Assembly (NCBI GenBank): GCA_018970725.1
Contig: JAGWVU010000028.1
Span: 1 to 64,000 of the forward strand
DNA from: Verrucomicrobiota bacterium
GTDB taxonomy: Bacteria; Verrucomicrobiota; Verrucomicrobiia; Verrucomicrobiales; DEV007
Reading direction: 5' to 3'
DNA: 64,000 nucleotides
Of the stretch, positions 57,241-64,000 are shown in pieces. Each line of letters begins with the position of its first letter. Within the stretch, counting starts at the first letter, position 1. The notes below the pieces were generated by a model, which was not told the origin of the DNA, ran no database searches, and saw only the letters and a list, made by a program, of their open reading frames with translations. A program made the position numbers and the translations under genes.

Positions 57241-57996
57241 ATGCACACATCCGGCGGTCTTTGCGCTTGCGGACCCGGCCGGGACAGGACCCGCGCCTGT
57301 CTCCGCCCGGGAATCTTCCTTGTGGCCCTGCTCTGCGTCCTCTGGCCCCGGCCGGTCCCGGCGGACGTCGGGGAGCACAAGGGGACCCGGATTTTCCGGT
57401 GGCCGGCCCCCCCCCCCACCGACCTTGAAGGCCGCAAGAAAGCTTTGGGAGAGCAGATCAGCCAATACTCCAAATTGGCGGGGCACATGAAAAACGCTTC
57501 CCGCAGCCCCTCCGACCCCTTCTGGGCGGAGCGCAAGAAGCTGATCGCCTCGATCTGGCCCTGCGACTGTAACGGCGTCCGCAAGACCTTGATCGACACG
57601 CTCTTCAAAGAGAGCATGGACGGGTTTTACCAGTATGGGAATTGCGGGGAAGGGGCCATCGTGACCATTTGTCTGGCGAAACACTACGGATTCGCCAAGT
57701 CGGACATCCTGCACTGCCAGAACCGCTACAAATCCACCGACGCGACGAAACCTCCCCGCCTCAAGCACCAGTTCGGGGTGCTCCGCATCGGGGATTCCTG
57801 GTATCTGCTGGATCGATGGAATCGCTTTCAGGGAGGCCTAAAGCTGGAACCGATCATTCGGGACGGGAAGCACGCCCGCGCGCAGTGGGATCCCACCCGC
57901 AAGCTTTACAAGTTGACGACGCCCAGTGGCGGGAACTTCTTCGCCGGGGCCCGGGTCAGCGAGGAGATCGAAGCCAAGGAACCGACTTACTGGTGA
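57241..57996 (+). CDS. Transglutaminase-like exported protein
   Basis: The 251-residue protein has a membrane-spanning or signal segment (GIFLVALLCVLWPRPVPA). A Cys-His-Asp triad is visible: Cys in QYGNCGEGAIVTICLA, His in RLKHQFGVLRI and Asp in WYLLDRWN, the spacing of the transglutaminase-like/papain fold. It could be a protease or crosslinking enzyme. The first 20 residues are Cys- and Arg-rich and the start may be further in, but no later ATG precedes the hydrophobic segment. Its stop overlaps the Dus gene start as GTGA. Confidence 0.55.
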   Translation: MHTSGGLCACGPGRDRTRACLRPGIFLVALLCVLWPRPVPADVGEHKGTRIFRWPAPPPTDLEGRKKALGEQISQYSKLAGHMKNASRSPSDPFWAERKKLIASIWPCDCNGVRKTLIDTLFKESMDGFYQYGNCGEGAIVTICLAKHYGFAKSDILHCQNRYKSTDATKPPRLKHQFGVLRIGDSWYLLDRWNRFQGGLKLEPIIRDGKHARAQWDPTRKLYKLTTPSGGNFFAGARVSEEIEAKEPTYW

Positions 57997-59042
57997 GCCC
58001 CGCCCCGGACGGCCCCTGGCTGCCCCGCCGCACTCCCCTGCTGGCCCTGGCGCCGATGCAGGAAGTGACCGATCTGGCCTTCATGCGGGTTCTCGAGGCG
58101 CACGGGCATCCCGACCTTTACTTCACCGAATACTTCCGGGTTCACGCCCATTCCCGGCTCGACAGGCACATTCTGCGCTCCATCACGGAGAATCCGACAG
58201 GTCGTCCGGTGGTGGCGCAAATGATCGGGGAGGATATCGAACGCCTGGTGGCCACCGCGGAGGAATTGCAGCGGTATGAGGTGGCGGGCATCGACCTCAA
58301 TCTCGGTTGCCCGGCCCCCTGCGTCTGCAGCAAACACTCCGGCGGGGGGCTCTTGCGAAACCCGGCCAAGGTGGACGCGATCCTCGCCGCGCTCCGTTCC
58401 TCCATCCGGGTGGCCTTCACCGTGAAAACGAGGATCGGCTACGAGAGCCCGGAGGAGTTCGACAATCTGCTGGAGATCTTTGCCAGGCACCGGATTGATC
58501 TGTTGTCCGTGCACGGCCGCACCGTGGCGGAGCGCTACCACTCCGCTATTCATTACGATCGGATCCGTTCCGCGGTGGAACGCCTCCCCTGCCCCGTCCT
58601 CGCCAACGGCAATGTGGTCTCCCTCCGGACCGCCCTCCTCACCTTGGAAAAAACCGGGGCCGCCGGGTTGATGATCGGACGGGGCGCGATCCGTCACCCA
58701 TGGATTTTCGCCCATCTCCGGCATTACTTCGATACCGGGACAGCCCTCCCGCTCCCGGATTCCCGGGAACTCCGGAAGTATATCGAGCGGCTCTATCGGG
58801 AGACCCGCGACGATGAGGCCACTCCCTTCCAGCACGTCACCCGGATGAAACGCTACCTGAATTTCATCGCCCCCGGACTGGGCCAGGAGGAACGTTTTCT
58901 TTACGAGATGAAGCGGGTGCGGGAGGAAGCCGGGTTCTTTGAGATCTGCGACCGCCACCTCCGCACGGGGGAAACGGTTCCCGCCGAACCTCCGCCGGAA
59001 TCCGTCTTTGCTGGCCTTGCGGCTCTGGATCTGGCAGAGTGA
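57993..59042 (+). CDS. dus: tRNA-dihydrouridine synthase
   Basis: The 349-residue FMN enzyme reduces uridine in the D-loop of tRNA. TPLLALAPMQEVTDLAFMRV starts the barrel, GIDLNLGCPAPCV carries the catalytic Cys, and VKTRIGYES, SVHGRTVAERY, ANGNV and LMIGRGAI are conserved family blocks. The start is GTG 57993 in a GTGA overlap; the frame is open upstream but that lies inside the previous gene. The subclass (DusA/B/C) cannot be fixed by eye. Confidence 0.92.
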   Translation: MSPAPDGPWLPRRTPLLALAPMQEVTDLAFMRVLEAHGHPDLYFTEYFRVHAHSRLDRHILRSITENPTGRPVVAQMIGEDIERLVATAEELQRYEVAGIDLNLGCPAPCVCSKHSGGGLLRNPAKVDAILAALRSSIRVAFTVKTRIGYESPEEFDNLLEIFARHRIDLLSVHGRTVAERYHSAIHYDRIRSAVERLPCPVLANGNVVSLRTALLTLEKTGAAGLMIGRGAIRHPWIFAHLRHYFDTGTALPLPDSRELRKYIERLYRETRDDEATPFQHVTRMKRYLNFIAPGLGQEERFLYEMKRVREEAGFFEICDRHLRTGETVPAEPPPESVFAGLAALDLAE

Positions 59043-59046
59043 CCGC

Positions 59047-60027
59047 ATGAAGGGTCTTTGCCGGCTCGCCGTTTTTCTCTTTCTGGGTTCGGGCCTCGCG
59101 CCAGCCGGGGAGACGGTCCGCCGCGAAATTTTCACCAACTTCGCTCCTGTCCCGCTCCTCAAGGAAACCGTCCGGGATACCCTCTCCCCGGAGGGCCGCT
59201 TTGTCATTCTCCCCGACAAAGGAGCCGTTCTGGTGATCGACCAACCGGAGCGCGTCGCCGCCGCGGAGCAGGCCATCCGGTCTCTGGATCTTCCCGCGCC
59301 CCAGCTGGAACTGCAGGTCGGCGTGCGCACCGGAGGCAGCGTGACCCGCCCACCGGCCCCGGCCCGGGATCCGTTCTCCGGTGGACTCGACTTCCCGGTT
59401 CCCACCGCCTTCGCGCCACCACGGGTCCTCATCCAACCGGACGGCCGGTATGTCGTCATCCCGGCCACGCCCACCCGTTTCGGCCGGCGCGCCGTCGGGA
59501 CCACCCTCGAAACGCAAGCCCTGGCCCACACGAACGGCTCCGTTCAACTCAATCTGCGGTTCGAGCAGGTCGACTTCGCCGGATTCGTCCGCTACGGCTC
59601 CCCGGTCCTCCCCTTTGGCGCCGCTTCGGTGTTGCCCTTGCAAGAACGGATCCCCCGTCCCCTCGTCATGGGCGAATACCTGCGCCACGCGGTCCCCGGG
59701 TTGCCCGTCTTCGAAACCACCCGGATCTCGACCTCGATCCTCGTTTCCCCCGCCCGGGACGCCGATACGGTTCATCTCGAGGTCTTGCCCCGGGTCACGA
59801 TCGCCGCGGAACACGGCTCGCGGGAACAGACCCACGCCTTCCGCCAATACCGCACCAAACTCGCGGTGAAGAACGGGGGAATCGCCACCCTGCGCGCCTT
59901 CCGCGATGCGCCGGACGCCTTCAACGAAGTCTTTTTCGGCGACGAAAAACACCCGGTCGGCGTCGCCGAACTGGTGCTCAAGGCCCGCATCGTCCCGGGA
60001 GCGTCCGAACGGGCAAGCCCCCGCTGA
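59047..60027 (+). CDS. Exported protein with secretin-N-like repeats
   Basis: The 326-residue precursor has a signal peptide (LCRLAVFLFLGSGLAPA). Residues about 40-85 (FVILPDKGAVLVIDQPERVA) resemble the N-domain fold of type II/III secretins, where short alpha-beta modules form the periplasmic ring. The remainder (residues 90-320) is strand-rich (SVQLNLRFEQVDF, LEVLPRVTIAAEHG) and resembles the secretin core region only loosely. No neighbouring secretion-system gene is present. It may be a stand-alone remnant or part of a dispersed type II system. ATG 59047 is four bases after the Dus stop. Confidence 0.55.
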   Translation: MKGLCRLAVFLFLGSGLAPAGETVRREIFTNFAPVPLLKETVRDTLSPEGRFVILPDKGAVLVIDQPERVAAAEQAIRSLDLPAPQLELQVGVRTGGSVTRPPAPARDPFSGGLDFPVPTAFAPPRVLIQPDGRYVVIPATPTRFGRRAVGTTLETQALAHTNGSVQLNLRFEQVDFAGFVRYGSPVLPFGAASVLPLQERIPRPLVMGEYLRHAVPGLPVFETTRISTSILVSPARDADTVHLEVLPRVTIAAEHGSREQTHAFRQYRTKLAVKNGGIATLRAFRDAPDAFNEVFFGDEKHPVGVAELVLKARIVPGASERASPR

Positions 60028-60310: not shown

Positions 60311-60706
60311 CTACCAGATTCGGGAAGCGCCCAGGCCGGACAACGGGGTGTCGGGGGAGAGAACGGTCAGGCCAGCGTCGATGGCCTGCGCGGCCAAGAG
60401 CCGGTCAAACGGATCGTCGTGGGTCATGGGGAGTTCGCCGCTGAGAAAAATCGCATTTTGCCTGAGTGGCAGAGACTGCAATTGATGCCGCATCAGCTTG
60501 GCTGGCACCCATTTCCGGGGCGCGTCCGGCAACGGCAGCTTGCCCGCCGCATGTTTGAGGGTGATTTCCCAAAGGCTCACATCACTCACGAACAAAACGC
60601 TGTCCGGATCGTTCAGCGCGTTTGCCGCCGTGGGGGAGATCATCGCGGGCTGCTGGGCCAGCCAGAGAAACGTGCAGGTATCCAACAAATAGTTCACAGC
60701 CCCCAT
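60311..60706 (-). CDS. vapC: VapC-like PIN-domain toxin
   Basis: The 131-residue PIN-domain ribonuclease begins with NYLLDTCTFLWLA, which places the first catalytic Asp. VSDVSLWEI and the second acidic cluster in THDDPFDRLLAAQA follow. The end is short (PDTPLSG). It cleaves RNA when freed from the antitoxin. Its start overlaps the antitoxin gene by 13 bases, with the antitoxin first, the normal order for such pairs. It is at the left edge of the defence-like segment. Confidence 0.88.
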   Translation of the reverse strand: MGAVNYLLDTCTFLWLAQQPAMISPTAANALNDPDSVLFVSDVSLWEITLKHAAGKLPLPDAPRKWVPAKLMRHQLQSLPLRQNAIFLSGELPMTHDDPFDRLLAAQAIDAGLTVLSPDTPLSGLGASRIW

Positions 60707-60936
60707 TTCTCAAGCTCCCCCTTCGGAAGCGGCGCAAATGCCGAAAGCGGGAACTCGAATGGCTCGCCCTCGATGTCGCCCACCTTGGGACGGGGAAGGT
60801 GCCGGGCCTTCGTCATCGGCACCAGCATCGCCACCGGCGTCTTACCGCGAGCGATGACAAACTCGCGGCCCTTCTCCACCTCGGCGAGATATCGCGAGAG
60901 GTGCGTCTTGGCCTCGTGCGTCGTGATGGTTTCCAT
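60694..60936 (-). CDS. Phd/YefM-family antitoxin of the VapBC-type pair
   Basis: The 80-residue protein begins TITTHEAKTHLSRYLAEVEK, the DNA-binding fold of Phd/YefM antitoxins, with REFVIARGKTPVAMLVPM next. The C-terminus (SAFAPLPKGELEKWG) is the usual toxin-neutralising tail. The pair is autoregulated in typical systems. Confidence 0.9.
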   Translation of the reverse strand: METITTHEAKTHLSRYLAEVEKGREFVIARGKTPVAMLVPMTKARHLPRPKVGDIEGEPFEFPLSAFAPLPKGELEKWGL

Positions 60937-61170: not shown

Positions 61171-61980
61171 TCAGCCCTCCACCGACCGGGTGAACTCCCG
61201 CAACAGCGCCTCGTCCATCTCGACCAGATGGCAACGCTCCGGGAACCGGCCCGCCTCGACGTCCGCCCGGTATTCCAAAAACGCCGTGATCCGCTCCTCC
61301 TGCAACCGCCGGGCCTCCCCGAGGAAATCCCGGTAAGCCTTGGCGTGGCGGGGCAGTCGCTCCGGATAATCCCCGAGAATATCGTCCGAAAAAAGGAACT
61401 GGGTGTCGCACCCGCTCCCGGACCCGAGCGACATCAGGATCATGCTGGTGCGGGACGAGAGAAAGGAGGCGAGATTGTGCGGCACCACCTCGAGTTCGGC
61501 GGCATAAGCCCCGGCGCTCTCCAGCGTCTTCATCCGGTCATACAATTCCCTCGCCTCCCCAAGGGTTTTGCCGATCGCCCGGTATCCGGTCCAGGTCACG
61601 TGGCGCGGCACCAGCCCGAGGTGACCGACCACCGGAATCCCCTCGCGCGCCATCGCTTCCACGATGCCCGGGCTGGCGGAGCAGTAGACGGAGCTGGCCC
61701 CGATTTCCAAGGCCCGGAAGGCGACGCGGATCGCATCTTCGGCGGAGGCCAAACCGTGCGGGGTGGCAGCGGACAAAAAACTGTGGGGTGCGGCATCGAC
61801 CAGATGGGGCAACCGGGCCTGGGATTCCGGGGTATCGAAGCTGCAACTCATGAGGTCGATGCCCGCCGCCTCCGCCGCCGCGGCCTCTTCGGGCGATTTG
61901 ACGTGGACGTGGGTGAGGCAACGTTTGCCCTTGAGTTGGCGGAGGTCGTGGACGGTGTATTTCTTGCGCGGACGAAGCAT
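61171..61980 (-). CDS. PanB-like (ketopantoate hydroxymethyltransferase family) protein, metal ligands altered
   Basis: The 269-residue TIM barrel has the PanB blocks IPVVGHLGLVPRHVTWTGYR and YAAELEVVPHNL, with the catalytic Glu kept in ELEVVP, and a FLFSDDILG block near the end. The metal-binding Asp of the VGDS motif is not visible (DLMSCSFDTPE instead), and the second Asp region reads FLSAATP. It may catalyse a different C-C aldol reaction, or be unrelated to pantothenate. ATG 61980 begins the family N-terminus. Its context is a defence-like segment, not a pan operon. Confidence 0.65.
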   Translation of the reverse strand: MLRPRKKYTVHDLRQLKGKRCLTHVHVKSPEEAAAAEAAGIDLMSCSFDTPESQARLPHLVDAAPHSFLSAATPHGLASAEDAIRVAFRALEIGASSVYCSASPGIVEAMAREGIPVVGHLGLVPRHVTWTGYRAIGKTLGEARELYDRMKTLESAGAYAAELEVVPHNLASFLSSRTSMILMSLGSGSGCDTQFLFSDDILGDYPERLPRHAKAYRDFLGEARRLQEERITAFLEYRADVEAGRFPERCHLVEMDEALLREFTRSVEG

Positions 61981-62123
61981 GGGACTCCCGCCAGCATTGC
62001 GGAGCCCGGGCCGGGAGGCAAGCTCCATACGTTCAAGGGGCTGTTGAAAACCTCCGGGTCTTGCGATGCGCTCCGCCAATTTGGCTCGATGCGAGAGCCC
62101 TTGGCCCCGTTGGCTGCCGGCCC

Positions 62124-62613: not shown

Positions 62614-63726
62614 GTGAGCGAAAGCCCTATCAAATCCTACATCGATGAACTCGAACGACGGATTCGGGAGTTTCAGGACGTCAAGGTCCGCTGCGGCCTG
62701 ATAGGCACTTCGGGATCCGGAAAATCCTCCTTAATCAATGCGATCGCGGGCGAGAAGATCGCACCGGTCGGAATCCTGGAGACCACAAACGAACCCCAGG
62801 AATTCCTCCATGGAGGATTAATGTTCGTTGATCTGCCGGGCTGTGGAACGCCATCCTGGCCTCGGGAGACCTACCTCAGTAAACTGCAGCTCGACTCCTA
62901 CGACTGTTTTATCCTCGTCACTGCGGAGCGCTTCCGGGATGACGACCTCTTTCTCTACCGGGAACTCACCTGTCGTGGCCTTGCCTGCTTTGTGGTCCAC
63001 AATAAATTCGATAGCGCCATCGCGGACGGCGCACACGATAACAGTTTGCCTGAAAAAGAGGTCCGGGCCAACATTCTCCAAAACATCACGGTTAACCTTG
63101 CGCCCGAATCTCCAGACCGAATTTACCTGGTGTCCGCCCGTCACCCAACCCGTTACGACTTGGCGGCTCTTCAGGAGGACATCGAAAAAAAGCTCGAAGG
63201 GATCAAGCGTAGCCGCTTCGTGGCGGATATGGGCGCCTACGGATCGGCGACGCTTCGCGCCAAACGCGCCGTGTCGGAAGAGCGAGTCGTTCTTTATTCT
63301 GCACTGTCTGCCGCTAACGGCCTTAATCCACTCCCCGGGCTGGACATCAGCGTCGATGCCGGAATTCTACTCAAGATGGGTCAAGAGGTTGCCCACATCT
63401 ACGGCCTGACTGGAACGCAGATCGATTTCATCAAACGCTTCCTCGGGCCGGATGCCATTCCTCTTCTCCTCGCCAAAATTGCCCAGTTCATCTCCAAATA
63501 CCTTGCTCAGGAGGGAATTATCTTTCTACTCAAGCAAATGGGACAGAAGGTCGGCGCAAAATCCGCCGCGAGGTGGATACCCTTGGTGGGCCCCGTGATC
63601 GCCACGTCGATCGGCTTCGCTGCGACCAAGGCCTTGGGGGATCAGTTGGTCCACGAAGCCGAAAAACTGACTGAGGAAATCCTCGACGGAATGCGGGACT
63701 CAATCCATGTCGGGACCCACGAATGA
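62614..63726 (+). CDS. IRG-like (immunity-related GTPase) protein, coupled to brxA
   Basis: The 370-residue protein has a P-loop GTSGSGKSSLIN at 31-42, candidate switch Thr57/58, G3 DLPGCGTPSWPRETYL beginning at Asp73, and G4 HNKFD at 129-133. The block DSYDCFILVTAERFRDDD and the overall order match interferon-inducible IRG/IIGP GTPases more than Era or dynamin. A C-terminal hydrophobic stretch (WIPLVGPVIATSIGFAATKAL, about 320-342) may associate with membrane. GTG 62614 is chosen because the domain begins just after it and no ATG lies between it and 62251. The stop overlaps the next start as ATGA, so it is coupled to the BrxA-like gene. Confidence 0.75.
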   Translation: MSESPIKSYIDELERRIREFQDVKVRCGLIGTSGSGKSSLINAIAGEKIAPVGILETTNEPQEFLHGGLMFVDLPGCGTPSWPRETYLSKLQLDSYDCFILVTAERFRDDDLFLYRELTCRGLACFVVHNKFDSAIADGAHDNSLPEKEVRANILQNITVNLAPESPDRIYLVSARHPTRYDLAALQEDIEKKLEGIKRSRFVADMGAYGSATLRAKRAVSEERVVLYSALSAANGLNPLPGLDISVDAGILLKMGQEVAHIYGLTGTQIDFIKRFLGPDAIPLLLAKIAQFISKYLAQEGIIFLLKQMGQKVGAKSAARWIPLVGPVIATSIGFAATKALGDQLVHEAEKLTEEILDGMRDSIHVGTHE

Positions 63727-64000
63727 AACAAAAGCCCGCCCCCGCTTACAGCTTTGGGTTCACCGCCCAGGGACTCGGCGTCCGACACGCTCAAACCTTC
63801 GCCACCATCTTTCTGGCGTCCGGGGATTGGAAGACGGCAAAGGCAACCGCCTTAGCCCAAAATGCCTTCCGCCAAGAGCGCAAAACCTCGCTCAACCGCC
63901 TCGAAGGGGAAATCCGGCTGCGGCTTCAGACCCTCACGCCAGCCGAACTCCAATCCCTTGCGGAAGGCGATTCCACCAGCGCCCGGATTCTCGCCTTGCT
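63723..64000 (+). CDS. brxA: BrxA-like (DUF1819) protein, partial, cut by window end
   Basis: The visible 92 codons read MKQKPAPAYSFGFTAQGLGV then FLASGDWKTAKATAL, NAFRQERKTSLNRLEGEIRL and RLQTLTPAELQSLAEG. This is the N-terminus of the DUF1819 family: a helical domain with the RL.rEI..RL..L pattern. BrxA is the first core gene of BREX phage-defence operons (brxA-brxB-brxC-pglX-pglZ and others). The remaining BREX genes would lie beyond 64000. The ATGA overlap makes the IRG-like GTPase likely to be transcribed and translated with it. Confidence 0.7.
   Translation, partial: MKQKPAPAYSFGFTAQGLGVRHAQTFATIFLASGDWKTAKATALAQNAFRQERKTSLNRLEGEIRLRLQTLTPAELQSLAEGDSTSARILAL

Follow-up and report, generated by a model that had tools for sequence, protein, structure and literature searches.

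Introduction

In mice, IRG GTPases are central to cell-autonomous defence. The vertebrate IRG/p47 proteins such as Irga6/IIGP1, Irgb6 and Irgb10 are united in the Pfam family PF05049. When the family was surveyed in 2005, its relation to bacterial GTPases could not be established by sequence comparison, as the resemblance did not reach beyond the G domain (PMC1297648). Large GTPases with a helical domain also occur in bacteria, and the dynamins LeoA and LeoBC are represented by PADLOC models.

The second system of relevance here is BREX, whose type 1 is arranged as brxA-brxB-brxC-pglX-pglZ-brxL. In relatives of the genome studied here, brxA is the first gene of this operon and shares 4 bp with brxB. 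A survey of BREX diversity from 2026 catalogues nuclease accessory effectors, while its main text mentions neither GTPase nor dynamin, interferon or DarT (PMC12839542). An earlier note on the present DNA had stated that no described BREX subtype is known to carry this gene, which fits the main text of this one large survey. A literature text search that combined BREX with 'IRG GTPase' returned no match.

Here we analyse a stretch of 64,000 nucleotides from a Verrucomicrobiota bacterium (contig JAGWVU010000028.1, hereafter the window), near the end of which an IRG-type GTPase gene runs directly into brxA. Our preferred explanation is that a prokaryotic IRG-family GTPase was recruited as accessory to BREX, a tentative reading to which we give slightly less than an even chance.

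Results

The GTPase is encoded by an intact open reading frame of 370 codons on the forward strand (62614..63726), with a GTG start at 62614 and the TGA stop at 63724-63726. The motifs G1 (GxxxxGKS), G3 (DxPG) and G4 ((N/T)KxD) are all present in the correct order, as the earlier note had described for the P-loop, DLPG and NKFD of a 370-residue protein. The P-loop GTSGSGKSS comprises residues 31-39 (62704..62730), of which G34, G36, K37, S38 and S39 are invariant in our alignment A3, and the same holds for D73, L74, P75 and G76 of the DLPG motif (residues 73-76; 62830..62841). NKFD was read from the translation at residues 130-133 (63001..63012). CGT follows DLPG and replaces the region of Ras Q61. 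The residue directly after DxPG, a position at which an IRG feature has been described (PMC1297648), is Cys in the window GTPase (DLPGC) and Tyr in the homologs of Deinococcus, Azospirillum and genome G935. The C-terminal helical domain (residues 196-370; 63199..63723) contains a conserved NGLNPLPGLDIS and a hydrophobic WIPLVGPVIATSIGFAA stretch and matches DUF697 weakly (0.0083). The maximum Kyte-Doolittle value is 1.37, and no segment reaches the hydrophobicity of a clear transmembrane helix.

Sequence comparison strongly supports the assignment of this protein to the IRG (IIGP) family. PF05049 matches with E = 1.3e-35 and 123.6 bits at a Pfam cut-off of 24. In a phmmer search with the single sequence as query, the best solved relatives are all IRGs, with the Irga6 crystal structures at 2.8e-23. 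A profile of the bacterial subfamily, built from four members, reaches IRGs in the PDB at 8e-38 and 134 bits, while the next family, Der/EngA, obtains 56 bits; IRGs outscore every other PDB family by 77 bits. We also searched with a profile confined to the C-terminal part (A4, residues 198-357 plus homologs). All eight PDB matches up to E = 10 are IRGs, the best at 0.063, and their register is the one that the G domain predicts. Taken alone this match is marginal, and it agrees with the full-length match. Judged from these alignments, homology to IRGs does not stop at the G domain and covers roughly half of the helical domain. Thus, the designation as IRG-like in the earlier note, made from motif order and spacing, stood up to profile searches in which the helical domain matches IRGs alone. 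A structure predicted with AlphaFold from two sequences gave Foldseek matches of which the top 37 are all IRGs; since the model is weak (pLDDT 51, about 70-78 in the G domain), these fold matches were used for the G domain only. Two other affiliations were rejected: the NCBIfam scores for the housekeeping GTPases Era, EngA/Der and HydF stay far under their cut-offs, and the similarity to the dynamin-like LeoA is weak and mostly restricted to the G domain.

The stop codon of the GTPase gene overlaps the start of the following gene in the tetranucleotide ATGA (63723..63726, forward strand), just as the earlier note had reported. This second gene extends from 63723 to the window end at 64000 and on to the contig end at 64087, giving 121 codons in total; its start aligns with the BrxA N-termini of relatives. 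The 92 codons within the window match PF08849 (E = 3e-10) and all 121 codons match the PADLOC BrxA model (E = 2.7e-21), so that the former description as a DUF1819/BrxA-like protein holds and the assignment of the gene to BREX is supported at the sequence level. Since the contig of 64,087 bases stops inside brxA, nothing further downstream can be read.

Relatives give a picture of the operon to be expected. BrxA occurs in 13 of 142 related genomes, the source genome counted. The four closest BrxA proteins (49-54% identity) all belong to BREX loci of the same bacterial family, and in these loci, with one representative of each protein scanned, PglX is of the BREX-1 type, PglZ is of BREX-1 type A and BrxC scores above its cut-off. 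The operon of the window would thus probably be BREX type 1. One locus of the family (L033) is complete in the order brxA-brxB-brxC-pglX-pglZ-brxL, and both it and L036 show an ATGA overlap between brxA and brxB, in the same 4-bp style as the GTPase/brxA junction. The slot that separates brxA from a LysR-type regulator varies among these loci: L036 has an MkoA-like helicase-nuclease there, L034 a metallophosphoesterase and L033 no gene. In the window the GTPase occupies the slot upstream of brxA, and the LysR gene is absent there.

PglZ and BrxC were not found across the whole assembly (96.5% complete, 108 contigs), and the sampled 1.76 Mb of the genome yielded no other BREX gene, pglX and brxL included. 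A search for the remaining BREX genes at contig starts yielded none and led to the right arm of a genomic island instead. On contig C89, a match to LysR (43%) was discarded as a lead, as no BREX genes lie beside it, and the BrxA fragment of the window had no match among plasmids.

GTPase and brxA form the left arm of this inserted defence island, which by comparison with the congener G389 begins at 62039 and runs past the window to the contig end at 64087. It is flanked by the core gene panB (ketopantoate hydroxymethyltransferase; 61171..62079, reverse strand; PF02548, 1.8e-32), which both congeners share at 86% identity. In G389, about 10 bp separate the homolog of position 62038 from that of position 3790 of contig C59. 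Consequently, the island was inserted between panB and the DUF58/MoxR operon. Both congeners show the empty site, and the middle of the island is unassembled. Its right arm (C59:1-3789, locus L160 of the same genome) has its start within an IS66 transposase gene; it comprises this IS66 element and an ATPase matching the PADLOC candidate PDC-S01 (2.7e-82). The GC content of the GTPase gene (55.8%, GC3 66%) lies below that of the window (62.8%) and the GC3 of panB (82%), which fits a recent acquisition. We considered a chimeric contig and rejected it: the congener-like sequences to which the two island arms are joined occupy adjacent positions, and GTPase and brxA have their nearest homologs in the same order and family.

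Two further features of the neighbourhood deserve mention. A Phd/YefM antitoxin and PIN toxin pair (60311-60936, reverse strand) lies between panB and the gene at 58939-60027. In G389 the corresponding stretch is absent (about 70 bp vs 1.2 kb), and G388 has a much shorter version, which makes a second recent insertion beside panB probable. In addition, a 251-aa protein (57241-57996, forward strand) is 82-84% conserved in the congeners and matches no Pfam family.

The GTPase subfamily is rare and consists mostly of solitary genes. Within a phylum sample of 388 genomes it was detected in the source genome alone, and four further strong matches were found among 387 genomes of the same order. PF05049 was represented by the seed only in 396 genomes of the Flavobacterium phylum, 72,556 plasmids gave two near-full-length matches, and a P-loop pattern scan of genome contigs provided at least one real homolog among the matches listed. 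No homologs were found in viral contigs. We compared the neighbourhoods of eight homologs, namely those of the window, Deinococcus sp. QL22, G451, G390, G912, G935, Flavobacterium and Azospirillum. The first three lie in or beside defence genes, while the other five have ordinary surroundings. The sister of the window GTPase, G451 (57% identity, branch support 89/89), adjoins the PADLOC candidate PDC-M19B. As a separate observation, in its gene (L074, 820-1797) about 44 residues, the P-loop among them, have been lost in frame, so this protein is probably inactive.

The earlier note had proposed that a GTPase was added to BREX and had suggested a search for the same adjacency in other genomes. 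No other locus found repeats the exact GTPase-brxA overlap, and none of the four strong same-order homologs lies beside brxA or BREX. The proposed addition itself gained one independent BREX-embedded homolog, on plasmid NZ_CP097151.1 of Deinococcus sp. QL22. There, a hypothetical-GTPase-GTPase cassette stands between pglZ and NADAR-DarT-pglX, with the GTPase homolog (29-30% identity) embedded among the BREX core genes. This locus differs from the window in having two GTPases plus a 515-aa unknown protein as a three-gene cassette on the strand opposite to the BREX genes, and in lacking an annotated BrxA. Because of the opposite orientation, co-expression is not conserved. Furthermore, the two GTPases belong to different clades and phyla and are separated by a branch with support 98/100; thus, their links to BREX probably arose separately. 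The chance of another homolog landing in a BREX locus was roughly estimated as about 0.002 (BrxA in 12 of 141 other relatives, about 15 genes per 4,500, seven homologs), a value that is suggestive for co-location and does not amount to a census. Directly after pglX, the Deinococcus locus also contains a DarT ADP-ribosyltransferase fusion with a NADAR antitoxin (L006, 11745-14965).

Discussion

We propose that a horizontally transferred BREX operon may have gained a prokaryotic IRG GTPase as its first gene and that translational coupling to brxA would let both proteins be made together. The GTPase would then most likely act as an accessory, backup anti-phage effector. One might envision a GDP-bound monomer as resting state, and infection, or BREX being engaged or inhibited, as trigger. 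GTP-driven assembly via the G domains could subsequently free the helical domain to bind the inner membrane and to disrupt or remodel it, by which the infected cell would be stopped. This membrane step is borrowed from what is known of IRGs and dynamins. The scenario presumes that a complete BREX operon is present and that the GTPase works together with it, both of which we infer.

Several findings argue for such an accessory role. Same-family BREX loci carry other accessory genes upstream of brxA; the window brxA falls into a clade of same-family loci with a BREX-1 PglX, BrxC and PglZ type A; and candidate defence genes occur both in the right arm of the island (PDC-S01) and beside G451 (PDC-M19B). 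The family assignment, the ATGA junction, the Deinococcus locus and the low GC and GC3 of the GTPase gene point the same way. Against it count that PglZ and BrxC were not found in the assembly, nor any other BREX gene in the 1.76 Mb sampled, same-order homologs that are not beside BREX, the Flavobacterium and Azospirillum homologs outside defence loci, the lack of a clear transmembrane helix together with the weak structure model, and the opposite strand of the Deinococcus GTPases.

In the main rival reading, the GTPase forms a defence module on its own, a single gene that moves between islands and landed before brxA without functional tie to BREX, in which case the ATGA overlap would yield shared expression and nothing functional. 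This must be taken seriously, even if we consider it less likely than the accessory reading: most homologs are solitary, the sister G451 adjoins a different candidate defence gene, the Deinococcus cassette is set within BREX on the opposite strand, and the island carries PDC-S01 as well. However, the exactness of the overlap suggests co-translation, and a position in or against BREX arose twice independently in an otherwise rare family. We regard it as quite unlikely that the protein acts at the membrane or in stress without a part in defence and adjoins brxA by coincidence. While the solitary homologs indeed neighbour ordinary genes (aminotransferase, acetyl xylan esterase, transporters) and the weak DUF697 similarity would suit such a role, the patchy distribution, the low GC content and the three of eight homologs in or beside defence genes, with the chance estimate given above, speak against it. 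A similarly small probability is assigned to brxA being a remnant cut by the IS66 element, which would leave an island of GTPase plus truncated brxA and no working BREX in the genome. The missing PglZ and BrxC and the start of the other island arm within the transposase gene would agree with this. Yet the final bases of the contig are still brxA-homologous, with the alignment reaching codon 121 and no IS66 sequence at the end, and in an assembly of 108 contigs a missing island of 15 kb is unremarkable.

If the accessory reading is correct, this GTPase would be the first of its kind for BREX, unlike the nuclease effectors catalogued so far in the main text of the recent survey (PMC12839542). 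A bacterial IRG that aligns past the G domain and occurs in phage-defence loci would add one more branch of animal immunity to those tied to phage defence, and our results suggest that IRG-type immune GTPases also act against viruses in bacteria. A bolder version, which we think doubtful, is that the IRG family represents an ancient anti-viral immunity common to bacteria and vertebrates, with bacterial members as BREX-coupled effectors or sensors and the window as a new BREX variant in which a membrane-acting GTPase backs DNA-directed exclusion.

Comparison with known systems

Compared with BREX type 1, the window locus is distinguished by an IRG-family GTPase preceding brxA, while only the 5' part of brxA is assembled from BREX itself. 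LeoA and LeoBC likewise combine a large GTPase with a helical domain. Their PADLOC models, however, span 559-601 positions vs the 370 aa of the window GTPase, their match is weak (LeoA 3.2e-7) and concerns mostly the G domain, and IRG profiles score far higher. In contrast to vertebrate IRGs, the window protein is bacterial, has an N-terminus about 40 residues shorter, lacks a myristoylation signal and interferon control, and after about residue 277, i.e., in its C-terminal third, is not alignable to solved IRGs. Nevertheless, its G domain and the first half of its helical domain are collinear with those of Irga6/IIGP1, Irgb6 and Irgb10, and it shares with them the IRG-style G1 and G3, a non-glutamine residue after DxPG and an FP/WP-x-x-x-Y stretch after G3.
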